DNA of 46,526 bases. Origin: Sideroxydans sp. (GTDB taxonomy: Bacteria > Pseudomonadota > Gammaproteobacteria > Burkholderiales > Gallionellaceae). Positions 32,821 through 43,880 of this stretch are shown here, one piece after another. The position numbers and the translations under genes were made by a program. The notes below the pieces were generated by a model. The model had not been told where the DNA came from, made no database searches, and saw only the letters and a list, made by a program, of their open reading frames with translations. Positions within the stretch are counted from its first letter, which is position 1. Each line of letters begins with the position of its first letter. The stretch is taken from the NCBI GenBank assembly GCA_011620315.1, contig WOZO01000119.1:1-46526 (forward strand), in the 5' to 3' direction.

Positions 32821-32876
32821 CGGTGGATTATAGCGGAACAGGGGTGCGACATTCCGCCGCGCGACATCATGACGCA

Positions 32877-32944: not shown

Positions 32945-35227
32945 GTGAAGATACGCAGCAAACAGATCGCAGCCTGTGTGGCATGGGCACTTGTCGCACC
33001 GCAGGCATCCTGGGCCGAGATCGGCGCATTGCCGGAAGTGACCGTCTCATCCACCACCATCGACGACCGCTTCGATTCCAAGCGCGGCGAACCCTCCAAC
33101 GTCAATAACATCAGCGGCAAGAAGGTCGATGCGCGCCACGGGCAGAACATCGTCGAAGTGCTGGAATCCATCCCTGGGGTGAGCGCCGAAGTGCAGAGCG
33201 GCGATTCGGTGAAGATCATGCTGCGCGGTGTCGAGGCGCAGCGCTACATGGGCGAGAAGCCGGGCGTGGCCATCGTCATCGACGGCGTGCCGGTAGTGGA
33301 GCGTACCGGGCGCGTGAACATCGATCTGGACAACATCGAGTCGATCAAGGTCATCAAAGGCGGTGCCTCTTACCTGTTCGGCGAGGACGCTTTGTCCGGC
33401 GCGGTGATCATCACCACCAAGCGCGGGGCGAAGATGGCAGGCTATACCGCCAGCGCCGAAGTCGGCAGCTACAGTTATTACAAAGGCATCCTGCGCGCAG
33501 GGTTCGCCGACGGCAAATGGGTTGGCCATATCCAGAAATCCAAACTGCAATCCAGGACCTTTCATGATCAGGGCGACTGGGGCCGCGATTATGTGGACGG
33601 CAAGCTGCAATACATGATCGATGACAGCAGCGACATGATTTTCGGTTTCGAGCATGCCCTCCGCAACAAGGACAGCCATGGCACAGTCAAGGGCGTGACC
33701 GCCGCCTTGCTCGATCCGACCAGCGTGGACGGCGGCAAAGACTATGCACGCAAATACGATGTGACGCTGGACAAGGTCAATCTTTCCTATGCCAAGGATA
33801 CCGGTGCGGGCGGCAATCTGATGGTGAACACATATCTGTTCAAGGACCACACCTTCGGCTGGCAGAATCCGAACGGCTTCTTGCGCGACAGCACGGGCGC
33901 TTTCCTGAATGGCACATCCGCCGCCAGCGACATGAGCACCATGCGTGACGCCTATGTCAGCGGACGGGATACGCAGCAGCAGCAAACTGGCGCAAAAGCA
34001 GAATGGCGTCAGGGCGGCGCACAGATCGCCTGGATGGGCGGTCTGGATCTGCAGCAGTTCGAGGACAGATCGCTGTCCACCAATCTGGTCACCTATACCA
34101 GCCGCAGCACCCCGGTCGGCATCAGCAACCCGCTCAATCTGGCCGGCACGGTCACCGAGGACAGCCTGTCCACCTCCGACACCCGTGCCATCTATGGCGA
34201 ACTGAAATGGCAATTGAGCGCGCCGCTCACCGCCACATTCAATGCGCGTTACGACAACATCGCCCAGAGATACGTCAGCAACCTGCCGCTCACCGCGACG
34301 CAGATATCTGAAGGACGTACCACCACGGGTGAGAAGACGTTCAACGTATTGTCCGAACGCATCGGTTTCAACTATGCCTTCAATGAAGCGCGCGAGTTGT
34401 ATACCAACCTGTCCACCGGCTTCCGCGTGCCGACCGTGTCGCAACTGTACGGCGGCACCATCACGCCGACCGGTTCGGTGGCGGCCAATCCCGACCTGAA
34501 GCCGGAACATTCCTACAACGCTGAAGTCGGCCTGCGCGCCAAGACCGAGCTGCTGGGCATCCCGCTGGATACCGATGTGGCGATCTTCCAGATCGACCGC
34601 AAGGATTTCATCCTCAACACCGGCGGCCAGTACCAGAGCACGAGCGGCGCGACGCTGGCCAACGCGCTGGAGCAGTACCAGAATATCGGCGGCGTGCGCA
34701 ATCGCGGTCTGGAAGCGAGCGTCAAGACCGATGCGCGCGAAGTCTGGTCGGGCGACATGGCCTACACCTACCTGGATGCCGTGTTCACCCGCAACGATGT
34801 GTACTGGATGTCCATGGGCTCGCGCAGCCTGCCGCTGCCTTCGGTGCTATACAACAACACCGGCAACGTGGTGCCGCGCACGCCCAAGCACAAACTGAAT
34901 CTGACTTCGCGTTATCGCCCCATGGACGGCTGGACCTTCACCGGCGAGATGAATGCGCAATCCGGCATCTATGCCGACGAGGTGAACATCGTCTGGGTCG
35001 GCGGCCGCACCACCTATAACCTGATGGCGAACTACGAGTTCAAGGGCAACGGCAGGATGAAATGGTCCGCCTTTGCACGCATCGACAACCTGTTCGACCG
35101 TTTTTACTACTCCACTATCCGTGGCGGTTCCGACAGCAACGGCGACGGTGTGTACAACGCGGAAGACGTGTCCATCACCGTCAACCCCGGTCGCGTGTGG
35201 ATGGTCGGCGCGTCACTCAGCTTTTAA
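32945..35227 (+). CDS. TonB-dependent outer-membrane receptor (first of two)
   Basis: 760 residues from GTG 32945 with AGGGAG at 32936-32941. A signal peptide of about 24 residues ends ...APQASWA. The plug domain follows (VEVLESIPGVSAEV, then IDNIESIKVIKGGASYLFGEDALSGAVIITTKRG, the usual plug-to-barrel transition), then a 22-strand-type barrel ending in the C-terminal Phe of outer-membrane proteins (GASLSF). The substrate is unknown; context suggests a metal or metal chelate. It begins a nine-gene same-strand cluster that includes its own TonB motor. Confidence 0.9.
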   Translation: MKIRSKQIAACVAWALVAPQASWAEIGALPEVTVSSTTIDDRFDSKRGEPSNVNNISGKKVDARHGQNIVEVLESIPGVSAEVQSGDSVKIMLRGVEAQRYMGEKPGVAIVIDGVPVVERTGRVNIDLDNIESIKVIKGGASYLFGEDALSGAVIITTKRGAKMAGYTASAEVGSYSYYKGILRAGFADGKWVGHIQKSKLQSRTFHDQGDWGRDYVDGKLQYMIDDSSDMIFGFEHALRNKDSHGTVKGVTAALLDPTSVDGGKDYARKYDVTLDKVNLSYAKDTGAGGNLMVNTYLFKDHTFGWQNPNGFLRDSTGAFLNGTSAASDMSTMRDAYVSGRDTQQQQTGAKAEWRQGGAQIAWMGGLDLQQFEDRSLSTNLVTYTSRSTPVGISNPLNLAGTVTEDSLSTSDTRAIYGELKWQLSAPLTATFNARYDNIAQRYVSNLPLTATQISEGRTTTGEKTFNVLSERIGFNYAFNEARELYTNLSTGFRVPTVSQLYGGTITPTGSVAANPDLKPEHSYNAEVGLRAKTELLGIPLDTDVAIFQIDRKDFILNTGGQYQSTSGATLANALEQYQNIGGVRNRGLEASVKTDAREVWSGDMAYTYLDAVFTRNDVYWMSMGSRSLPLPSVLYNNTGNVVPRTPKHKLNLTSRYRPMDGWTFTGEMNAQSGIYADEVNIVWVGGRTTYNLMANYEFKGNGRMKWSAFARIDNLFDRFYYSTIRGGSDSNGDGVYNAEDVSITVNPGRVWMVGASLSF

Positions 35228-35236
35228 AGGATGGTC

Positions 35237-36124
35237 ATGAGAATCCTCTATTTCGCCTGTCTGTTTGCAACCTGCACCGCGACAGCATTCGCTGCAGAAC
35301 CGCCAGCGATGGCAGGACATGACCACGGTGCCATGATGCGCAGCCAGGCTGAGCACTGGACACAACTGCCTTTGCTCAAGGCCCGCATGAAAGGGCAAGA
35401 CATGTCATCGCGCAGCTATATCATGCAGCCGCAGAACATCGCGGCGGATGTCGTTGAAGCCTGGTCCAATAACTTGGATGATGCGAATGGGCATCGCCAA
35501 CTGGCCATAGAGATGGGCGGCGCGCCGCTGGACAAACCCGCCACGGGCGGCTTCCAGATGCTGACTGCGCGTGAAGTGCAAGGGGATGCAGTACGCGTCG
35601 CGTCCACCGTGCATTACTTCGGCGAGCGCGGCGGCAAGAACCCGAGCGCCATGTTCGAGCAAATCAAACATGAACTGGAGATCGTGCCGCAACCCTATCC
35701 GCGCGAACATTCACGCTACCGCGCCAATGAGGACTGGCAGTTCGCCGTGCGTTTCAAAGGTCAGCCACTGCCAGAACAAAAGGTCGTGCTGGAGACCTCG
35801 AACAGCAGCCGCGCCGAATTCATGACCGATGCGGCAGGCGTGGTGAAAGTGCATGTGCCGCAGGATTTCAAGGCTGAAGAAGAGCAAAGCAAGGGGGAAA
35901 GCCATGGCATGCGACGCGGGGCCGATTTCGTGTTGGCGGTGTCGCATGCCGATGGCAGCCTGCAATATCTGACCGCCTTCAACAGCAGCTACGGCGAAGA
36001 TGCCTACACCAACCGCAGTCTGGCGATGGGGCTGGGTTTCATGCTGGCCGGCATGCTGGGCGCGGCACCGTTGCTGCGCAAGCGCAAGGCTGCCGCCAAG
36101 AATGAGGAGCCAAGCAATGCTTAA
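35237..36124 (+). CDS. Exported His/Met-bearing protein with C-terminal membrane anchor (DUF4198-like)
   Basis: About 295 residues. ATG 35237 has AAGG (35227-35230) at good distance; ATG 35231 is also in frame but touches it. A signal peptide ends ...TATAFAAEP and is followed by GHDHGAMM, a His/Met cluster that could bind metal. The body has a beta-sandwich look (VRFKGQPLPEQKVVLETS, then TDAAGVVKVHVP), resembling DUF4198/CbiK-like proteins next to metal receptors. A C-terminal helix (about 258-276) and a basic tail look like a GlyGly-CTERM-style anchor. It directly follows the receptor, so it is probably a periplasmic metal-handling partner. The function is inferred from context. Confidence 0.65.
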   Translation: MRILYFACLFATCTATAFAAEPPAMAGHDHGAMMRSQAEHWTQLPLLKARMKGQDMSSRSYIMQPQNIAADVVEAWSNNLDDANGHRQLAIEMGGAPLDKPATGGFQMLTAREVQGDAVRVASTVHYFGERGGKNPSAMFEQIKHELEIVPQPYPREHSRYRANEDWQFAVRFKGQPLPEQKVVLETSNSSRAEFMTDAAGVVKVHVPQDFKAEEEQSKGESHGMRRGADFVLAVSHADGSLQYLTAFNSSYGEDAYTNRSLAMGLGFMLAGMLGAAPLLRKRKAAAKNEEPSNA

Positions 36125-37166
36125 GAATCTATTCCCCACGCTGGCGCGTTTCCGCTTCACCGTGCAGATTGTCATGCTGTTCGTCACCGTGTACGGCGGC
36201 GCACTGCTGGGCAGTTACACCGTGGACCGTATCTCGCAGGCGCTGCCGTCGCTGGCTTGCGCCTACGACAAGGTGACCGGCGACCACTGCATCCTGATCA
36301 GCGCGCAACACCAGTTGCATCACCGCGTCGGGGTGGCCTTGGCCAAGGCGGGCGATGTTGCGCTCAATGTGTTCCTGCCCACGCTGATCACGGTGGGCGT
36401 GTTCTTCCTGTTCTTCTTCTTTTTGAACAAGGCGTTCTGCGGCTGGATCTGTCCGCTGGGCACGGTGCAGGAGGTGCTCTACAAGATCGGTCGCCGTCTC
36501 GGTCGTCCGCTCAATCGTTTCAAGCAAGGGAATGTGGGCCGTGTGCGTCCGGTCAAGTGGTTCATGCTGCTGGTGCTGGTGTTGGGCCTGCCGACACTGG
36601 CGGGCATGGGCACTGTCGCCAATGAGCTGGGCGACCCGTTTTGCCAGGTCTGTCCGTCGCGCATCGCCACCACCTTGCTGACGGCGGATACCGAACAGCT
36701 TGCCGTGCGTACCGGCACGGGCATCAACTTTTTCTTGGGCGCATTGGGCAATGCCCTGTTCGGCTTCATGATCATCGCCGCACTGGCGGTGCGCCAGCCG
36801 TTCTGCCGCATCTGCCCGCTGCTGTCGTGGAATGCGCTGTTCCAGAAGCTGTCGCCGATGCGGCTGGTGAAGAAGGAGGCGCACGACAAATGCGCCAAGT
36901 GCGGCGTGTGCGAGAAAGCCTGCCCGATGGACATCCACGAGATCGGCACGGCATTCGGCAGCAAAGCCTTCCACGAGGACTGCACGCTGTGCGGCCGCTG
37001 TGCCGAATATTGTCCGGACGACGATGTGATCCAGCTCAAGTTCTTCGGCTTCAAGCTGTTCGGTTCTTCGCGTGACTACTACAAGGCACGCGTGAAGTTC
37101 GAAACACCCGAAGGCCAACCGAAGAAACGCGTGATCCCCATCCTGCGCGCCAAAGAGAATGGATGA
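36117..37166 (+). CDS. Membrane polyferredoxin (NapH/NosR/CcoG-like 4Fe-4S protein)
   Basis: 349 residues from ATG 36117, with GAGGAG at 36104-36109 and an 8-bp overlap with the previous gene. About five membrane helices. Cysteine pairs C108/C112 (CGWICPLG), C176/C179 (CQVCP) and C230/C233 (CRICP) sit at membrane boundaries. Two classical 4Fe-4S motifs follow: C259-x2-C262-x2-C265-x3-C269 and C289-x2-C292-x2-C295-x3-C299. This is the layout of NapH, NosR C-terminal and CcoG/RdxA proteins, which pass electrons across or along the inner membrane; CcoG has been linked to Cu(II) reduction. No nap, nos or cco genes are nearby, so here it probably reduces a metal or thiol partner of the receptor cluster. 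Confidence 0.85.
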   Translation: MLKNLFPTLARFRFTVQIVMLFVTVYGGALLGSYTVDRISQALPSLACAYDKVTGDHCILISAQHQLHHRVGVALAKAGDVALNVFLPTLITVGVFFLFFFFLNKAFCGWICPLGTVQEVLYKIGRRLGRPLNRFKQGNVGRVRPVKWFMLLVLVLGLPTLAGMGTVANELGDPFCQVCPSRIATTLLTADTEQLAVRTGTGINFFLGALGNALFGFMIIAALAVRQPFCRICPLLSWNALFQKLSPMRLVKKEAHDKCAKCGVCEKACPMDIHEIGTAFGSKAFHEDCTLCGRCAEYCPDDDVIQLKFFGFKLFGSSRDYYKARVKFETPEGQPKKRVIPILRAKENG

Positions 37167-37803
37167 GTGGCAGCTGTCGCAGCAGACTACGCTGTTCACC
37201 GTGTGGCTGCTCGGCGCCTCGCTGGGCCTGACGGCCTGCACCGCCACCTGTCTGCCGTTCATGGGCACCTGGATACTCGGGCGCGGCGGCAGCCAGCTGC
37301 AGGCGCTGCGCGATACCAGCCTGTTCGTCAGCGGACGCATCCTGGCTTACACGATGCTGGGCGCGCTGGCGGCTGCGGCGGGCACCTGGCTGTCGCGGGC
37401 GCTGCAAGGCGGCAGCGGCAATCTGTTCATCGGTGCCGCATCCATCGCCGCCGGGCTGTGGCTGTTGCGCAAGCAGACGCATGCGCCTTGCGGCGTGTCG
37501 AAGCGGGCCGGCAGTGCGCCGCCTTTGTTGCTCGGGTTTTCACTCAGTCTCACACCCTGCGCACCGCTGGCATCCCTGCTTGCCGTGTGCGCGGCGGCGG
37601 GCAGCGTGCAACTGGGCATGGCCAACGGCGTGATGTTCGGATTGGGCGCGGCGCTGACACCGCTGCTGATACTATTGCCGCTGATCAGCCTGCTGGGTAA
37701 ACAGTTGCGCGAGAACCGCGACTGGCTGACGCGCTGGATACGCCGGGGCGCGGCTGCGGTACTGGTCGTGCTGGGACTGCGCCGCGTCTTTTTATTCCTT
37801 TGA
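37159..37803 (+). CDS. Small CcdA/DsbD-like (DsbD_2/UreH-type) membrane protein
   Basis: 214 residues with about six membrane helices. Helix 1 carries the cysteine pair C27/C31 in TACTATCLPF and a later helix has SLTPCAPLASL, the paired-cysteine-in-helix pattern of CcdA/DsbD transmembrane domains and of the 'sulfite exporter TauE/SafE'-annotated UreH-like family. Such proteins move reducing equivalents or metal ions across the inner membrane. Its ATG overlaps the polyferredoxin end by 8 bp, so the two are probably coupled and may form one electron route to the periplasm. Confidence 0.75.
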   Translation: MDEWQLSQQTTLFTVWLLGASLGLTACTATCLPFMGTWILGRGGSQLQALRDTSLFVSGRILAYTMLGALAAAAGTWLSRALQGGSGNLFIGAASIAAGLWLLRKQTHAPCGVSKRAGSAPPLLLGFSLSLTPCAPLASLLAVCAAAGSVQLGMANGVMFGLGAALTPLLILLPLISLLGKQLRENRDWLTRWIRRGAAAVLVVLGLRRVFLFL

Positions 37804-37825
37804 ACCGAACGAACAAGTCTGTCTG

Positions 37826-39913
37826 ATGAAACGTAGCTGTCTGTTATTCGCCTTCCTTCCGCTTCTTGCATTCGCCGAAGACCGACCCGCCCTGCAAGAG
37901 ATCACCGTGACCGGCAAGCAGGAAGACATCGCCGCGCGGCGCGATGCGAGCACGCAAAAAGTGATCATCGGCCGCAAGGACATCGACAACCTTGGCGCGA
38001 TGACCATCGGCGAGGTGCTGGGCAAGTTGCCCGGCGTGGAAGTGAAGGGCGACGGACACCGCGCGCGCGGCATGTCGCGCGACAGCGTGCAGATATTGGT
38101 GGACGGTGAACGTCCGGCGGGCGGATCACGCATCGTGGCGGGGGTGGTCGGTCGTCTGCCAGCGGGGGAACTGGAGCGCGTCGAGATATTGCGCGGTGCG
38201 TCCGCGGAATACGGCGGCGCGGCGTCCATCACCGTCAATCTGGTGATGAAGAAGCCGGTCAGCAAGCGTTCCACTGCCATGAAAGTGGCAGTCGGTATGC
38301 GCGGCAACGAACCGACCGGCCAGCTCACTTGGACGGAGAACGGCGGCGAGGGCGGTTTTGCCTGGACCTTGCCGATCACGCTCAATATGCATCGCAGTCA
38401 AGCCGGCAGTGTGCTCGAACGACGTAACGAAAGCGCAGGCGTCACCGTATTGAACGAGCAGGACAAGGATGAGGGGCTATCGACCTTCCGCGAATTCGTG
38501 ATGTCGCCGCGCATGACCTGGAAGCAGGGGCGTGACAGCCTGACCGTCGCCCCCCTGCTGTTCGACGGACTGGGCAAACGCAACAGCGACATGACGCAGA
38601 CCGCGGCCAGTCCGGCGAGTAGCAGCAATATGGTGGGCAATGGCGACCGTAGCAGTCGCGAGGAGAATCGTCGCTGCCTGCAACGTCTGCGTGTGGAGGG
38701 CGAAAAACATCTGGGCGACAGCAAACTCACCGGACGTGTCTCGCTCAACCATGGCACGCGGGATGTGAATATCGTGCGCCTGTCGCATGACGCGGCGGGC
38801 ACAGCCAGCACCCGCACGGATGACACCGCCAGCAACGAGAACGAATCCAGCTTGGCGTTCCGGCTGGACAGGCCGCTGGGCGAACAGCATCTGCTGGCGG
38901 TCGGGCTGGAACACGCCTTGCTGAAACGCAGCGATACGCAGACCTTTTCCGGCGTGACGTCCAGCTACGCCGATCAGGAACGGCAAAGCATCCTGTGGCT
39001 GCAGGACGACTGGATGTTCACCGACAAGACCACGTTCACCTACGGTCTGCGCGGCGAACGCGTCGATCTGGTTGCCGATAGCAGCGCCCGGCAGCATGGA
39101 CAATTGATGCCCTCGCTGGCGATCCGCTGGGCACCGCAGGAACAATGGCTGGTTCGCTCCTCGCTGGGTGCAGGGTTGAAGATGCCGAGGCTGAACGAGA
39201 TCAGCGATGCGGCGACGCTGAGCGTCGCGGCGAACACGCCGACGGAAGCAGACACACGCGGCAATCCGAACCTGCGGCCCGAACGCAGTGTGAATTTCGA
39301 GGCGGTGCTGGAACGTTATCTGCCGAACAACACCGGCGTACTCGGACTCAATTTCTACGCACGCAACACACAGGATTTCACCGAACGCCGTGTGCAACGG
39401 GAAGGCGCGCGCTGGGTAGACAGGCCGCAGAACGAGGGCAGCGCCCGTCACTGGGGTTGGGAGCTGGACGGCAAGGTACAGACCGATGTCTGGGGTTGGA
39501 AAGGCGCGACCGTCAAAGCGCATCTGACCTTGCCGCATGCCTCGGTGAACGACGAGCGTCTTGGTATCTCGCGTCTGGCGCGCGACACACCCAAATACAT
39601 TTTTTCAGCCGGACTGGACGAGAACCTGCCCAAGTTGAATTCCAGCTACGGCGTGTCGCTGCAACTGTCGGGACGCAGCGTGACCGACATCCCGGACGAG
39701 ATGTATGCCGTGTCCGACGCGCGCGCCACACTGGACGGCTATTGGCTGTACAAGCTGTCGCCCGTGTTCAATCTGCGCGCCACCGCCAACAATCTGCTGG
39801 CAACGGACTCGGTGCAGCACACGCGCTTCACGAACGGCGGCGATACCTATGCATTGACCAGCCGCAGCATCGGCTATCGTTCCTTGCTGGTGACACTGGA
39901 GGGGCGCTGGTAG
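37826..39913 (+). CDS. TonB-dependent outer-membrane receptor (second of two)
   Basis: 695 residues. A signal peptide of about 17 residues ends ...LPLLAFA. The plug includes LQEITVTGKQED (TonB box region), IGEVLGKLPGVEV, RGMSRDSVQILVDG and ELERVEILRGASAEYGGAASITVNLVMKKP. The barrel ends in a C-terminal Trp (LEGRW). It differs clearly from the first receptor, so the locus probably handles two ligands or two forms of one. tonB starts one base after its stop. Confidence 0.9.
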   Translation: MKRSCLLFAFLPLLAFAEDRPALQEITVTGKQEDIAARRDASTQKVIIGRKDIDNLGAMTIGEVLGKLPGVEVKGDGHRARGMSRDSVQILVDGERPAGGSRIVAGVVGRLPAGELERVEILRGASAEYGGAASITVNLVMKKPVSKRSTAMKVAVGMRGNEPTGQLTWTENGGEGGFAWTLPITLNMHRSQAGSVLERRNESAGVTVLNEQDKDEGLSTFREFVMSPRMTWKQGRDSLTVAPLLFDGLGKRNSDMTQTAASPASSSNMVGNGDRSSREENRRCLQRLRVEGEKHLGDSKLTGRVSLNHGTRDVNIVRLSHDAAGTASTRTDDTASNENESSLAFRLDRPLGEQHLLAVGLEHALLKRSDTQTFSGVTSSYADQERQSILWLQDDWMFTDKTTFTYGLRGERVDLVADSSARQHGQLMPSLAIRWAPQEQWLVRSSLGAGLKMPRLNEISDAATLSVAANTPTEADTRGNPNLRPERSVNFEAVLERYLPNNTGVLGLNFYARNTQDFTERRVQREGARWVDRPQNEGSARHWGWELDGKVQTDVWGWKGATVKAHLTLPHASVNDERLGISRLARDTPKYIFSAGLDENLPKLNSSYGVSLQLSGRSVTDIPDEMYAVSDARATLDGYWLYKLSPVFNLRATANNLLATDSVQHTRFTNGGDTYALTSRSIGYRSLLVTLEGRW

Positions 39914-39914
39914 C

Positions 39915-40565
39915 ATGTCGGCCCTTGTTTTCAATCTGCCTCTGATGCATATGGCTGCGTTTCGCAATGCCGATCTGGAATCGCCCTGGTACGAACGGCT
40001 GACTGCGGTCGGCATCGTGGTGCTTGCGCATCTGCTGCTGTTCGTGTTCTGGCTGGCACAGCCGGAACCGCCGCAGGCAGCGATCAACGAGATGTCCATC
40101 TCCTTCGCCAACATCCAGATGCAGCAGGCCGACATCGCGCCGCAGCCGGAGATCAAGCCCGAGCCGAAACCGGAACCCAAGCCGCGCGTGATCGAACCCG
40201 AAGCACCAGCCGCGCCGGAACCCGTGGTGCAGGAACAGACGCCGCCCGCGATGGAGACACCGCCGTCGCCCGTGCAACTGGATGCCGAGCCTGATTACCG
40301 TGCCGACTACCTGAACAATCCGCGTCCGCCGTATCCGCTGGTGGCGCGGCGCATGGGCTATCAGGGCAAGGTGGTGCTGAACGTTGAAGTACTGGCCGAG
40401 GGCAGGGCGGGCGAGGTGAGGTTGCAGACCAGCAGCGGTTTCGACATCCTCGACAAGGCCGCGCTGCAGACCGTGAAGACCTGGAAATTCTCGCCCGCCA
40501 AGCGTTTCGGGCAGCCGATCACACAGTGGTTCTTGGTACCGATCAAATTTTCTTTAGAGGAATAA
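39915..40565 (+). CDS. tonB: TonB energy transducer
   Basis: Transmits proton-motive force from ExbB/ExbD to outer-membrane receptors. 216 residues: N-terminal membrane helix (about 31-48) with the His of the TonB helix in LAHLLLF, a proline/glutamate-rich periplasmic linker (EIKPEPKPEPKPRV), and the C-terminal TonB domain (PPYPLVARRMGYQGKVVL, then VKTWKFSPAKRFGQP). GAGGGG about 10 bp upstream supports ATG 39915; ATGs at 39945 and 39951 are alternatives. First gene of tonB-exbB-exbD. Confidence 0.92.
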   Translation: MSALVFNLPLMHMAAFRNADLESPWYERLTAVGIVVLAHLLLFVFWLAQPEPPQAAINEMSISFANIQMQQADIAPQPEIKPEPKPEPKPRVIEPEAPAAPEPVVQEQTPPAMETPPSPVQLDAEPDYRADYLNNPRPPYPLVARRMGYQGKVVLNVEVLAEGRAGEVRLQTSSGFDILDKAALQTVKTWKFSPAKRFGQPITQWFLVPIKFSLEE

Positions 40566-40570
40566 TCCGT

Positions 40571-41227
40571 ATGAACGATCTTTTTTCCGTTGATTCAACC
40601 GTCGTTTGGGCGACCTTGCTGCTACTGATCGTGCTGTCCATTGCAACCTGGTCCATCGCGCTGTTCAAAGTATGGAAGCAATATGAATCGCGCCAGAACG
40701 ACCAGCGCTTCAACCGCGAGTTCTGGGCGGTGCATGAATGGAGCGAGGCGGGCAAAGTCGCCGAAGCCAGCAAGGGTGACATCGCGCGACTGGCGCAGGC
40801 CGGCTTCGCCGAACTGAAGACGATCAACAATGCGCAACCCGACCTGAAGCATTCCGGCGCGCCGCAGGATGTGCTGGAGCGCCAGTTGCGGCAGAACCTG
40901 CAGAATATCCAGCGCTATCACGAACGCGGCCTGGCCGAGCTGGCGACCATCGGCTCCACCGCGCCGTTCGTGGGCCTGTTCGGCACGGTGTGGGGCATCA
41001 TGCATGCCTTGCAGAACATCGGCCAGACGGGCTCCGCTTCGCTGGATGTGGTGGCCGGCCCCATCGGCGAAGCGCTGGTCGCCACGGCCATCGGCATCGC
41101 CACCGCCTTGCCTGCGGTACTGGCTTACAACTTCTTCCTGCGTCGTCTCAAGGTGCATCTGACCGATCTGGAGAACTTCGCGCATGACTTCATGCGTCTG
41201 GCGCAAAAGCATGATTTCAAACTGTAA
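40571..41227 (+). CDS. exbB: ExbB/MotA-TolQ-family proton channel protein
   Basis: 218 residues from ATG 40571 (GAGGAA upstream). Three membrane helices; the conserved region STAPFVGLFGTVWGIMHALQ and ATAIGIATALPAVLAYNFF identify ExbB/TolQ. With ExbD it forms the inner-membrane motor that drives TonB. The close tonB and exbD neighbours and the two receptors favour ExbB over TolQ. Confidence 0.93.
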   Translation: MNDLFSVDSTVVWATLLLLIVLSIATWSIALFKVWKQYESRQNDQRFNREFWAVHEWSEAGKVAEASKGDIARLAQAGFAELKTINNAQPDLKHSGAPQDVLERQLRQNLQNIQRYHERGLAELATIGSTAPFVGLFGTVWGIMHALQNIGQTGSASLDVVAGPIGEALVATAIGIATALPAVLAYNFFLRRLKVHLTDLENFAHDFMRLAQKHDFKL

Positions 41228-41236
41228 GGAGGCGTG

Positions 41237-41650
41237 ATGGCTTTCGGAAATTCTTCCCAGCAGGATGAAGGCAACATGATGAGCGAGATCAACGTCACGC
41301 CGCTGGTCGACGTGATGCTGGTACTGCTGGTGGTGTTCATCATCACCGCGCCCTTGCTGGCCCCGCAGTCGCTCAAGATCAACCTGCCCAAGACCGACGC
41401 CGTGCAGCAGCAGGACAAGCCGCAGCAGGTCAGTCTGGTGGTGGACGCGCAGGGCAATGTCGAGATGGACAAGCAGCCGGTGAACGATGCGGAACTGGCC
41501 GCGATGCTGACCACACGATCCGCCGATCCACAATTCCAGTTGCAGATCGAGGCCGACAGTGCCGTACCTTACGGCCGCGTGGCGGGGCTGATGGCGCTGG
41601 CGCAGAAGGCGGGCGTGGCCAAACTGTCGTTCATCACACTTTCAAAATAA
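41237..41650 (+). CDS. exbD: ExbD/TolR-family biopolymer transport protein
   Basis: 137 residues from ATG 41237, with AAGGAGG at 41226-41232 overlapping the exbB stop. EINVTPLVDVMLVLLVVFII contains the essential membrane Asp25. A periplasmic domain follows (VSLVVDAQGNVEMDKQPV). Completes the TonB motor. Confidence 0.93.
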   Translation: MAFGNSSQQDEGNMMSEINVTPLVDVMLVLLVVFIITAPLLAPQSLKINLPKTDAVQQQDKPQQVSLVVDAQGNVEMDKQPVNDAELAAMLTTRSADPQFQLQIEADSAVPYGRVAGLMALAQKAGVAKLSFITLSK

Positions 41651-41709
41651 GGTCGCCATGGATAGACTGCCGCCTGCTTGGCAGTCCCATCAATTCAAGG
41701 AGAGATAAA

Positions 41710-42150
41710 ATGAATCGCAGAGAACTTTTGCTTGGCGCAGTCGCGATGGCCGCTGCCGGTACGGCATTCGGTGCCAGCCACGAACATATGGATATGGGGC
41801 ATGCGCACCATGTCATGGGGTCGGTGAACGACAAACTCATCGCAGCCGCCGCAGATTGCGTGACCAAGGCGAACCTGTGTTTGCAGCATTGCATCGTGCT
41901 GCTGGGGCAGGGCGACACCAGCATGGCGGAATGCGCCAAGACTTCCAGCCAAGTGATCTCCATGTGCGGCGCATTGCAACAGATGGCTGCTGCGAACTCC
42001 AAATATCTGCCGCAACTCGCCAAGGTCTGCATGGACGTGTGCAAAGCCTGCGAAGAAGAATGCAAAAAGACCGAAAAACACTCGGAGTGCAAGGCTTGCA
42101 AGGAGTCCTGTGCTGCCTGCTATGCGGAATGCAAGAAGATCGCAGCCTGA
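41710..42150 (+). CDS. Tat-exported four-helix, cysteine-rich copper-storage-like protein (Csp family)
   Basis: 146 residues. A twin-arginine signal (RRELLLGAVAMAAAGTAFGA from residue 3) is followed by a His/Met-rich segment (HEHMDMGHAHH, 24-34) and a helical body with 14 cysteines at 50, 57, 61, 75, 86, 107, 111, 114, 118, 127, 130, 134, 137 and 141. Many are three or four residues apart, so they line one face of helices as in Csp1 of Methylosinus, which stores many Cu(I) ions inside a four-helix bundle. AAGGAGAG lies before the ATG. The start is 59 bp after exbD and the gene is probably part of the same cluster. The signal predicts a periplasmic store. Confidence 0.88.
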   Translation: MNRRELLLGAVAMAAAGTAFGASHEHMDMGHAHHVMGSVNDKLIAAAADCVTKANLCLQHCIVLLGQGDTSMAECAKTSSQVISMCGALQQMAAANSKYLPQLAKVCMDVCKACEEECKKTEKHSECKACKESCAACYAECKKIAA

Positions 42151-42176: not shown

Positions 42177-42205
42177 AAGGCACGCCTCGGCGTGCCTTGT
42201 CGTTT
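42177..42205. terminator. Terminator after the copper-storage-like gene
   Basis: A 9-bp perfect stem AAGGCACGC/GCGTGCCTT (42177-42185 and 42190-42198) with loop CTCG, followed by GTCGTTTT. It lies 26 bp after the gene and separates the metal cluster from pntA. Confidence 0.75.
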
Positions 42206-42311: not shown

Positions 42312-43880
42312 ATGCGTATTGGGATTCCTGCGGAGACGAATGCAGGCGAGAAGCGTGTTGCGACAGTACCGGAAGTCGTAGAGAAGCTCATCAAGCTGGG
42401 TTTCGCAGTCGCTGTTGAATCAGGTGCCGGAGATGCGGCAAATTGTAATGACGATGCTTATCGTGCTGCGGGTGCCGAGATCATTGATGGTGCGGCTAAG
42501 CTGTGGGCTGAATCCGACATCGTATTCAAAGTAGCTGTCCCGACGCGTGCCGAAGTCGAATTGATGCGCGAAGGCGGCGTCCTGATCGGCTTCATCTGGC
42601 CCGCGCAAAACCCCGAATTGATGCAACAACTGGCCGCCAAGAAGGCCACAGTGCTGGCCATCGATGCCTTGCCGCGCCAGCTTTCCCGCGCCCAGAAGAT
42701 GGACGCGCTGACTTCCCAGGCCGGTGTCGCCGGTTACCGCGCCGTCATCGAGGCCGCCAACGCCTTCGGCCGTTTCTTCAATGGACAGATCACCGCTGCA
42801 GGCAAGGTTCCACCCGCCAAGGTATTCATCGCCGGTGCCGGTGTGGCCGGTCTGGCCGCCATCGGTACGGCTGCCGGTCTGGGTGCCATCGTGCGCGCCA
42901 ACGACACCCGCGCCGAAGTGGCCGACCAGGTCAAGTCGCTGGGCGGCGAGTTCGTCAAAGTCGAATATGAGGAAGAAGGTAGCGGCGGCGGCGGTTACGC
43001 CAAGGTGATGAGCGAAGGCTTCCAGCAGGCGCAGCGCGAGATGTATGCCAAGCAAGCCCGCGAAGTGGACATTATCATCACCACCGCGCTCATCCCGGGC
43101 AAACCCGCACCACGTCTGATCACCGCCGGGATGGTGCAGAGCATGAAGCCCGGCAGCGTCATCGTCGATATGGCGGCCGAGCGCGGCGGCAACTGCGAAT
43201 TGACCGTTCCCGGCGAAGCCGTGGTGAAGCATGGCGTGACCATCGTCGGTTACACCGATCTGAACAGCCGTCTGGCCAAGCAGTCTTCCACCTTGTACGG
43301 CACCAACCTGTTCCGTCTGGCCGAAGAGTTGTGCAAGACCAAGGATGGCGTCATCAACGTCAACATGGAAGACGACGCGATCCGCGGCCTGACCGTGATC
43401 AAGGATGGCGAGATCACCTGGCCTGCGCCGCCGCTGCAGATGCCTGCGCCTGTGGCCAAACCCGCTGCCAAGCCGGCCGCACCTGCCGGGCATGGCGCTG
43501 CCGCTGCGCCTGCATCGGCAGGCAAGATCGCGCTGCTGTTCATCGCCGCTGCATTGCTGTTCCTGCTCATCGGTGCCTACGCGCCGGCCGCCTTCCTCGG
43601 ACACTTCACCGTGTTCGTGCTGGCCTGCTTCGTCGGCTATATGGTGGTGTGGAACGTCACGCCGGCCTTGCATACGCCGCTGATGAGCGTCACCAATGCG
43701 ATCAGCAGCATCATCGCCATCGGCGCGCTGGTGCAGATCGCACCGCCGACGTTGCTCGGACTGGATAGACCGGACGGCTGGATACTCGGGCTGGCCGTGG
43801 CGGGTATCGCACTCACTGCGGTGAATATGTTCGGCGGCTTTGCGGTGACCAAACGCATGCTGTCGATGTTCCGCAAATAA
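42312..43880 (+). CDS. pntA: NAD(P) transhydrogenase alpha subunit
   Basis: Part of the inner-membrane, proton-translocating transhydrogenase that transfers hydride between NADH and NADP+. 522 residues from ATG 42312 with AGGAGGG upstream; the frame is open further upstream but includes the leader. The N-terminal dehydrogenase-like domain I has [20 protein letters not shown] and the NAD-binding fold [21 protein letters not shown]. An Ala/Pro linker (about 380-405) leads to four membrane helices. It is the fused E. coli-type alpha subunit rather than split PntAA/PntAB. pntB follows after 11 bp. Confidence 0.96.

Follow-up and report, generated by a model that had tools for sequence, protein, structure and literature searches.

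Nine adjacent genes on one strand, at positions 32945-42150 of the window (the whole 46,526-nucleotide stretch of DNA that was analysed, from an assembly that probably belongs to the Gallionellaceae), make up an operon-like unit that appears to combine familiar kinds of parts in a new way, with copper as its most likely, still to be proved, metal. We give about an even chance to the reading that this operon, switched by a redox regulator of the RegA/PrrA class, takes up copper, reduces it, and stores it to supply low-oxygen respiration. Its conserved core comprises a TonB-dependent receptor, a DUF4198-like anchored protein, a membrane polyferredoxin, and a DsbD_2 protein, mostly accompanied by TonB motor genes, while the copper-storage protein Csp1 and the second receptor are lineage add-ons on this wider redox/TonB module. 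A full-text literature search, with most subscription papers outside its scope, returned no description of the nine-gene set.

Components of the nine-gene unit

The positions, common strand, and tight packing of the nine genes are as first read, neighbours overlapping by up to 8 bp or standing up to 22 bp apart, with a single exception of 59 bp ahead of Csp1. Ahead of the unit stands an operator-like double palindrome (32845-32876) and behind it, at 42177-42198, a terminator-like hairpin, which give it plausible ends. The earlier reading of one operon-like unit is supported. The hairpin lies on the forward strand, as do all features below; it consists of 9 pairs followed by GTCGTTTTAT, begins 26 bp past Csp1, and has the longest stem listed in a terminator scan whose overall yield was near chance (11 found versus 7.4 ± 2.8 in shuffles). 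Plasmid origin was rejected, as a tblastn search with the DUF4198-like protein against 72,556 plasmid records gave zero matches.

The first receptor, R1 (32945-35227; 760 aa from a GTG start), matches PF00593 at 167.8 bits and PF07715 at 66.8 bits, and the second, R2 (37826-39913; 695 aa), matches PF00593 at 118 bits. R2 is optional, several relatives being without it. Neither receptor matched the NosA/OprC copper receptor model TIGR01778 at E ≤ 0.001; their best-scoring models are haemin and siderophore receptors, all under cut-off (haemin model: R1 147.7 bits, R2 82 bits, cut-off 316.85). Among solved structures, those of haem, colicin, siderophore, and B12 receptors matched only weakly, and no copper receptor reached E ≤ 0.001. 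In relatives, three related receptors score a weak 110-113 bits with TIGR01778, whose cut-off is 472.

The predicted motor was upheld by TonB C-terminal, MotA/ExbB, and ExbD domains within the one unit: TonB (39915-40565; 216 aa; PF03544, 83.1 bits), an ExbB-type proton channel (about 40571-41227, the start inferred from 218-aa relatives; PF01618, 122.9 bits), and an ExbD-type protein (41234-41650; 138 aa; PF02472, 103.3 bits). Pfam thresholds were passed by the TonB receptor, TonB_C, MotA_ExbB, ExbD, DsbD_2, and Fer4_5 families. By score, the ExbB/ExbD pair is nearer TolQ/TolR than the curated ExbB/ExbD models, reaching the cut-off of none of these (TIGR02796, 177.4 bits for the ExbB-type protein, cut-off 221). 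The operon ExbD is one of three ExbD/TolR matches in the assembly.

The second gene (35231-36124; 297 aa) encodes a DUF4198-like exported protein with an N-terminal His/Met stretch, whose PF10670 score of 32.6 bits falls just under the gathering score of 34 and so misses the family threshold. The original description as an exported protein needs a correction: hydropathy points to a C-terminal helix at residues 264-282 that probably anchors the protein in the membrane. Its mature start looks like Ala-Glu, cleavage being judged by eye, and H160 is present in 56 of 56 clusters. The profile's single match among solved structures was insignificant.

Beginning within that gene is a NapH-like membrane polyferredoxin (36117-37166; 349 aa; PF12801, 50 bits) with two 4Fe-4S motifs and four membrane helices predicted from hydropathy. 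It scores 63.5 bits to the NapH/MauN model TIGR02163, below the curated 213.05; the CcoG model TIGR02745 is absent among the 25 of 28 NCBIfam matches listed, and its Pfam matches include no C-terminal Ig-like domain. Residues C48, C58, H65, H69, C176, and C179, in loops predicted to be periplasmic, are kept in all 56 clusters. The next gene encodes a DsbD_2 (CcdA-like) membrane protein (37159-37803; 214 aa; PF13386, 64.9 bits) with a CxxxC motif, whose C27 and C31 are found in 55 of 55 sequences compared, no DsbD_2 having been found in L116. Residues were counted in one protein per cluster (32 + 24 clusters), and an earlier count on mixed loci gave identical invariant residues. The transmembrane redox module of the original prediction is supported.

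CcoG/RdxA/FixG (Rhodobacter, ccoGHIS) is, like the operon polyferredoxin, a membrane protein with two 4Fe-4S clusters. The operon protein differs in being NapH-like and sitting with TonB receptors, and it is not CcoG, for the genome has a separate ccoG (454.3 bits). The periplasmic Cys/His loop seems to be missing in CcoG. A role of CcoG in copper supply to cbb3 oxidase is described in a review (PMC7558416), which also gives CcoG as reducing Cu(II) and not Fe(III) in vitro.

The last gene (41710-42150; 146 aa), called Csp-like at first, encodes a genuine Csp1-family four-helix-bundle copper-storage protein (NCBIfam TIGR04401, 148.6 bits, cut-off 100; no Pfam match), with a twin-arginine start, MNRREL, and 14 Cys recognised by sequence only. 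The family profile matches the solved Csp1 5fjd (E 2.5e-30). Csp1 of Methylosinus trichosporium is likewise a Tat-exported, Cys-rich member of the four-helix Cu(I) storage family, thought to serve pMMO (PMC7558416), whereas Csp1 here closes a TonB uptake operon. At least two of TonB, ExbB, and ExbD lie within 8 kb on the same strand in 44 of the 63 Gallionellaceae genomes with Csp1 (counted where an ORF scored 60 bits or more with our own Csp1 profile). All 12 genomes tested have just three ExbD/TolR matches each, so that chance would give about 1% Csp1-motor proximity, by our own arithmetic and with the genomes being related.

Conservation among relatives

A further 31 Gallionellaceae genomes, and 24 from other families, carry the DUF4198-like gene together with the polyferredoxin gene, accompanied by a DsbD_2 gene in 31/31 and 23/24, respectively; the association is not due to chance. 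One locus, from the contig scan, belongs to a MAG labelled Sideroxydans lithotrophicus, a genus in Gallionellaceae. A receptor lies directly upstream of the core in every assessable cluster (30/30 in Gallionellaceae; 22/22 outside), and at least two motor genes fall within 12 kb of it in 27/32 Gallionellaceae and 16/24 outside clusters, with fewer than two in the remaining 8/24. Import and redox parts therefore travel together. Score limits and distances were set by us, and 60 of 188 neighbour proteins were hand-picked for one comparison.

The original prediction's view of the nine genes as one fixed system is not supported, since homologous clusters regularly lack the Csp-like gene, the very finding it had named as refuting. 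Csp1 accompanies the core within 12 kb in 18 of the 32 Gallionellaceae clusters and was not found within that distance in the other 14, four of which have less than 5 kb downstream; where at least 5 kb of contig follows, it is missing in 10/28. Outside the family it was found within 12 kb in none of the 24 clusters (four with less than 5 kb downstream). Searches of the whole genomes of G031, G060, G050, and G062 gave no Csp1 match. Outside Gallionellaceae, the core adjoins a nosZ-like gene in one genome (G183) and a PCuAC copper chaperone gene in another (G163), each a single case among the 24 outside clusters.

The operator-like palindrome and candidate redox control

The double palindrome at 32845-32876 (TGYGRCA-N3-TGYCGC abutting GCGRCA-N3-TGYCRCA; matrix from these loci) consists of two abutting 15-bp boxes, 32846-32860 and 32861-32875, and overlaps the 5' end of the longest mutL ORF. 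It is the sole match in the window at up to 3 mismatches (0.01 expected) and the sole one in the assembly at up to 2. Of the 30 Gallionellaceae core clusters that could be assessed, 28 have a comparable site near the start of the first receptor gene, a figure that measures conservation and is not an independent test, because we set the matrix and built it from the loci later counted. The double operator recurs in 2/22 assessable outside clusters, with a single box in one further (L177); among 25 clusters without the double box, single RegA-type boxes were found in L089 and L177 only.

With a matrix from 33 RegA ChIP sites (Table 2 of PMC5359404), the two boxes rank first and within the top five of all window 15-mers on both strands. 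The operator resembles, in sequence, two abutting RegA/PrrA boxes, and RegA would be its putative activator or repressor. Single boxes at up to 1 mismatch number 8 in the window against 3.9 expected, about twice chance, and a lone box is therefore weak evidence. The best RegA-like protein of the genome scores 202.7 bits, under a cut-off of 250 that none of the 150 family genomes passed; 12 of 14 control genomes also match the model, because any response regulator matches it somewhat.

Other operator copies precede genes for cd1 nitrite reductase, cytochrome bd, a short gene plus a cytochrome c/COX1-family pair, cytochrome c', cytochrome b561, a flavohaemoglobin-like gene, and RegBA-like genes. 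In G029, the same operator precedes a receptor gene and PCuAC, which stand opposite RegBA-like genes, and at L167 RegBA-like genes are divergent to the core cluster with the operator in between. The L248 cytochrome c was dropped as a target, because the operator there follows the stop codon of the cytochrome gene and precedes two genes that include a RegA-like regulator. Among known targets, ccoNOPQ is repressed by RegA (PMC5359404).

Control by a metal sensor was rejected. The window contains no Fur box at up to 3 mismatches (0 expected by chance) and no riboswitch at the Rfam gathering threshold, and the closest upstream counterpart of a NikR site departs from it at 5 of the 12 fixed bases. 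These are weak negatives, as the consensus strings come from other bacteria.

Copper and rival readings

Under the copper reading, the operon's own TonB-ExbB-ExbD motor would power the two receptors to bring copper, free or chelated, into the periplasm, and the anchored DUF4198-like protein would take it over at the inner membrane. The Fe-S clusters of the polyferredoxin would carry cytoplasmic electrons to the periplasmic Cys/His site, the DsbD_2 protein would keep the cysteines of this site reduced or add electrons, and Cu(II) would be converted to Cu(I), which Csp1 would hold as a periplasmic store for cbb3 oxidase and enzymes like it. Of the candidate metals, copper is the best supported: the nosZ-like and PCuAC neighbours, the PCuAC gene and receptor behind an operator copy, and the tie between Csp1 and the motor all point to it, though we still infer the metal. 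Evidence against copper comes from the receptors, which have no match to the copper-receptor model, from the many clusters missing Csp1, and from the characterised DUF4198 protein, which prefers nickel. NosA/OprC offers a parallel in TonB-driven outer-membrane copper import linked to NosZ (PMC7558416), matched here by the nosZ-like gene adjoining one core, but R1 and R2 differ in lacking a TIGR01778 match.

Such an operon would have import, reduction, and storage transcribed as a single unit and bears on copper passage across the outer membrane, periplasmic copper reduction, and Csp1 loading; how Csps are loaded is not completely known, according to the review PMC7558416. The reducing site is predicted down to named residues (C48, C58, H65, H69, C176, C179), and a redox operator of the RegA type would govern metal supply in microaerophilic iron oxidisers, a family of which some members are in culture.

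Iron is the leading rival, although we judge it unlikely: the receptors would import a ferric chelate, the polyferredoxin and DsbD_2 protein would release the iron by reduction, as proposed for FtrABCD-type systems, and Csp1 would be a neighbour with a separate task. The haemin and siderophore models that score best for R1 and R2, all below cut-off, and the Csp1-free core outside Gallionellaceae fit this view, and a membrane polyferredoxin reportedly takes part in FtrABCD iron transport. FtrABCD is said to pair a periplasmic protein with a NapH-like polyferredoxin in metal uptake, but reportedly includes a permease in the inner membrane and lacks a dedicated TonB receptor, the reverse of the operon here. 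The Csp1, nosZ-like, and PCuAC context argues against iron, as does the operator, which places the operon among respiration genes; the missing Fur box, a weak test, points the same way, and iron is abundant for Fe(II) oxidisers.

In an improbable alternative, a complex of nickel or cobalt is imported and then bound in the periplasm by the DUF4198-like protein. According to PMC12537917, IsDUF4198 binds Ni(II) with a Kd of 18 nM, nickel being bound best and copper not stabilising the protein, and DUF4198 genes adjoin TonB receptors and NikR regulators. The operon protein shares the adjoining TonB receptors and a weak DUF4198 match, but it has, by eye, no N-terminal His, its apparent Ala-Glu start contrasting with the His that most nickel-binding members retain, and it further differs in its membrane anchor and the copper-storage gene in its operon. 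The poor NikR match and the lack of a riboswitch also count against nickel or cobalt; nickel needs no reduction step, and Csp1 proteins bind Cu(I).

We find it quite improbable that the polyferredoxin and DsbD_2 protein serve envelope redox maintenance, feeding the maturation of periplasmic enzymes (NosZ, cytochrome c) beside separate TonB genes. DsbD_2 proteins do occur in cytochrome c and oxidase assembly, the polyferredoxin is NapH-like, one core adjoins a nosZ-like gene, and a third of the outside clusters have fewer than two motor genes nearby; the receptor upstream of every assessable core and the motor genes near most cores speak against it. Least probable is TonB-driven uptake of haem or another organic cofactor for cytochrome-rich respiration, which the haemin-model scores and the many haem proteins behind other operator copies favour, but which leaves the redox module and Csp1 unexplained, none of the nine proteins matching a haem-binding or haem-degrading family.

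Beyond the copper reading, and only tentatively when all its steps are taken jointly, the operon could represent a single branch within a superfamily of 'reductive TonB import' systems that has yet to be described. Receptor and motor would feed a periplasmic site reduced via the polyferredoxin's conserved C-C-H-H loop, where a metal complex or organic ligand would be reductively broken open, and a respiratory redox regulator, not a metal sensor, would switch the whole system. In the type found in the window, electrons would come from ordinary cytoplasmic donors; in a paralogous type, they would come from an ATP-driven HgdB-like (double-cubane type) protein with a BadF/BcrA-type ATPase, and potentials so low suggest a tightly bound metal complex or organic ligand as the target, not bare Cu(II). 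This ATP-driven variant would place one group of HgdB-like proteins in a physiological setting; the paralogous cluster does carry an additional ATP-driven HgdB-like reductase pair.

Gene content and conservation of the core cluster

The operon reads as a TonB-dependent metal acquisition system, of which the set of parts rather than the category is new. All nine genes that the original prediction had placed at 32945-42150, running from the first receptor (R1) through a DUF4198-like protein, a membrane polyferredoxin, a DsbD_2 protein, the second receptor (R2), TonB, ExbB and ExbD to Csp1, were confirmed by ORFs, Pfam and NCBIfam in an assembly of 2.95 Mb and 233 contigs, where the window is contig C107. 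The first gene begins with GTG at 32945 and the last ends at 42150. A terminator-like hairpin at 42177-42198 (9 pairs, then GTCGTTTTAT) lies 5' of the putative pntA start, taken as the ATG at 42312; because it follows the Csp1 gene and precedes pntA, Csp1 seems to belong to the transcription unit of the operon, with the caveat that such hairpins turn up at near-chance numbers overall in our terminator scan.

We compared 150 genomes of a family group that we infer to be Gallionellaceae, reading the sequence stretches that surround the DUF4198-like protein there and, for other families, the polyferredoxin. The DUF4198-like protein was recovered in 32/150 Gallionellaceae genomes, including the window's own, and in all 32 clusters its gene stands together with those for the polyferredoxin and DsbD_2 protein, in one case (genome G093) with a 2-kb insert ahead of the DsbD_2 gene. 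A receptor lies directly upstream of this core in 30/30 clusters with a contig reaching far enough, and 27/32 clusters carry two or more of TonB, ExbB and ExbD on the core strand within 12 kb. R2 and Csp1 are variably present. Among the 15 clusters of the window's genus, some of them cut by contig ends, 14 have mutL upstream and 12 have pntA on the downstream side. Of the 24 clusters from other families, 23 contain a DsbD_2 gene and 16 have two or more motor genes. At E<=1e-40, the polyferredoxin occurs in 19/300 genomes of the order and 16/369 of the class, family members included; its scores are bimodal, with those above 350 bits representing the window type and those of about 200 bits or less a second cluster type and a fragment. 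At the mutL site of genome G069 (stretch L284), the upstream double palindrome described below, a DsbD_2 fragment, TonB and ExbB remain, and the receptor and polyferredoxin are absent, an apparent decay of the cluster.

By hydropathy only, the polyferredoxin has four predicted helices, with its positively charged loops and Fe-S domains on one side, taken as cytoplasmic. The opposite loops carry C48, C58, H65, H68, H69, C176 and C179, all invariant in 56/56 clusters (24 outside the family) except H68, which is kept in 46/56. The DsbD_2 protein, which was not found in stretch L116, retains C27 and C31 in 55/55. H160 of the DUF4198-like protein is conserved in 56/56 and is its sole Cys, His or Met conserved above 80%; its N-terminal HDH..M stretch is common among Gallionellaceae, not universal. 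The redox module looks like a conduit that carries electrons, in the direction we infer, out of the cytoplasm to a metal site in the periplasm.

Csp1 and the TonB motor

Csp1 scores 148.6 bits vs a family cut-off of 100, contains 14 Cys and has a twin-arginine pattern (MNRREL) at its start; a profile built from 21 Gallionellaceae Csp proteins matched the solved Csp1 structure 5fjd at E 2.5e-30. Csp matches were recovered in 67/150 Gallionellaceae genomes, 61 of them above cut-off. Csp1 stands on the same strand within 12 kb in 18/32 core clusters of the family. In four of the 14 Csp1-less clusters (G087, G099, G145 and G097) the contig ends within 5 kb on the downstream side, and for G087 and G099 the R2-TonB-ExbB-ExbD-Csp1-pntA half was found on a separate contig (L098 and L100). 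For the other ten, Csp1 lies elsewhere in the genome in five (G035, G115, G044, G131 and G004), a mere 34-bit fragment is left in G001, and the genomes G031, G060, G050 and G062 gave no Csp1 match. Outside the family, Csp1 was within reach in 0/24 clusters, four of which have less than 5 kb downstream.

Viewed from its own side, Csp1 is tied to the TonB motor across Gallionellaceae. In 63 genomes a Csp1 ORF reached 60 bits or more in our profile; 44 of these genomes carry two or more of TonB, ExbB and ExbD on the Csp1 strand no further than 8 kb away, and 7 of the remaining 19 have Csp1 within 2.2 kb of an end of the stretch read. Nearby genes include a TonB receptor in 39 genomes, the window-type polyferredoxin in 17 and second-type parts in 5. 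Since three ExbD/TolR matches per genome were found in 12/12 genomes tested, such proximity would arise by chance in roughly 1%; as the genomes are kin, the 44 cases do not equal 44 independent events.

For the window ExbB and ExbD (40571-41650), TolQ/TolR models outscore the curated ExbB/ExbD models, all below cut-off; judged from these scores, the pair is perhaps a divergent motor subfamily.

A double palindrome shared with respiration genes

Sequences upstream of the first receptors share a double palindrome of two abutting 15-bp boxes (32845-32876 in the window), present in 28/30 assessable Gallionellaceae clusters vs 2/22 outside. This putative operator is rare in whole genomes: with up to two mismatches, it occurs in 76/150 Gallionellaceae genomes at 1 to 7 copies each, and the reversed control pattern in 0 of the 150; the operon copy is the only one in the window's genome. 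Both 15-bp halves resemble the RegA sites of Rhodobacter capsulatus given in Table 2 of PMC5359404. Under a matrix of the 33 RegA sites from that table, one window box takes first place among all window 15-mers and the other is in the top five; against this, single boxes with at most one mismatch number 8 in the window vs 3.9 expected.

The best RegA/PrrA-like regulator of the window's genome (contig C123) scores 202.7 bits vs a cut-off of 250. RegA-like matches occur in 150/150 Gallionellaceae genomes (best E <=1.6e-50 in 137, by hand count), with 0/150 passing 250 bits, and also in 12/14 control genomes, because response regulators share a domain. By coordinates read by hand, at least 17 of the 53 genomes with recorded operator positions have a RegA-like gene no more than 4 kb from an operator copy. 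In stretch L251, RegB/RegA-like genes (235/206 bits; cut-offs 350/250) face a receptor and PCuAC pair with the operator between; in L167, such genes (271/198 bits) oppose the core cluster itself, and L171 has a similar layout judging from sequence.

Other operator copies precede respiration genes, namely cytochrome bd subunit I (copy at L249:6329), cytochrome cd1 nitrite reductase (copies at L252:6436 and 6898; L255 has a gene with a similar N-terminus), a short gene ahead of a cytochrome c and COX1-family pair that resembles NO reductase (copies at L253:5806 and 9545), and cytochrome c' and cytochrome b561 (copies at L256:6112 and 7454; L257). In L272 a flavohaemoglobin-like gene lies 0.6 kb off, and RegBA-like genes and several receptors also follow operator copies. 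RegA targets listed in PMC5359404 include ccoN (repressed) and cydA (activated). The operon thus seems to be controlled together with respiration genes rather than as part of a metal-starvation regulon, and across Gallionellaceae the double palindrome has the look of a respiratory operator.

Metal substrate and the second cluster type

Copper is the best single candidate metal for the operon. It is favoured because Csp1 is in the operon and tied to the motor family-wide, because a nosZ-like gene or PCuAC adjoins the core elsewhere, and because PCuAC and a receptor stand behind the same operator. The adjoining genes, single cases outside the family, are a nitrous oxide reductase propeller gene 1.2 kb past the polyferredoxin (G183) and a PCuAC gene 3' of the ExbB/ExbD genes (G163). 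Among 60 neighbour proteins of outside clusters, hand-picked out of 188 candidates, nos_propeller was the sole copper-linked family in the best 25 of 42; PCuAC was present in one scanned protein, yet fell outside those 25. Copper also fits because Sideroxydans ES-1 and Gallionella ES-2, according to PMC3770913, encode oxidases of the cbb3 and bd types and have neither aa3 nor bo3 types; ccoG is present in the window's assembly. Against copper, R1 and R2 have no match to copper receptors, and the characterised DUF4198 protein is a nickel binder (PMC12537917).

A second, paralogous cluster type occurs in G142 (L085:9600-17240; L120), G037 (L101:15054-19501; L121), G003 (L127) and G108 (L260), as parts only in G086 (L256) and G095 (L129), and in other families (L182-L186). 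In L085, a Pfam run identified a receptor, a related polyferredoxin, an HGD-D protein (PF06050, 332 bits), a BcrAD/BadFG ATPase (PF01869, 198 bits) and a DsbD_2 protein, the place of DUF4198 being taken by a larger protein without Pfam match. The HgdB-like (PF06050) and BadF/BcrA-type ATPase genes sit between those for the polyferredoxin and DsbD_2. R2, TonB, ExbB, ExbD and Csp1 come after the cluster in G037, G003 and G095, and the operator precedes it in 2/5 assessable cases and, by map, in L256. HGD-D/ATPase pairs, as in double-cubane proteins, are known from ATP-driven low-potential electron transfer; by analogy, the second type may place such a pair inside a TonB uptake cluster. Cu(II) reduction needs no such power, so the substrate may be a complex that is hard to reduce, or each type may have a substrate of its own. 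In the full-text library searched, no paper combined three terms for this gene combination.

Two further features recur around these loci. Receptors at L126:6988-9186, L251:3663-5897 and L171:16518-18746 form a group with weak similarity to the copper receptor model TIGR01778 (110-113 bits vs a cut-off of 472) and adjoin Csp1, PCuAC or the core cluster. An exported BNR-repeat protein and a thioredoxin-fold protein (AhpC/TSA-like in L276) form a recurrent pair (L171:13019-14742, L265:8848-10571 and L276:1940-3030) that adjoins receptors or TonB genes.
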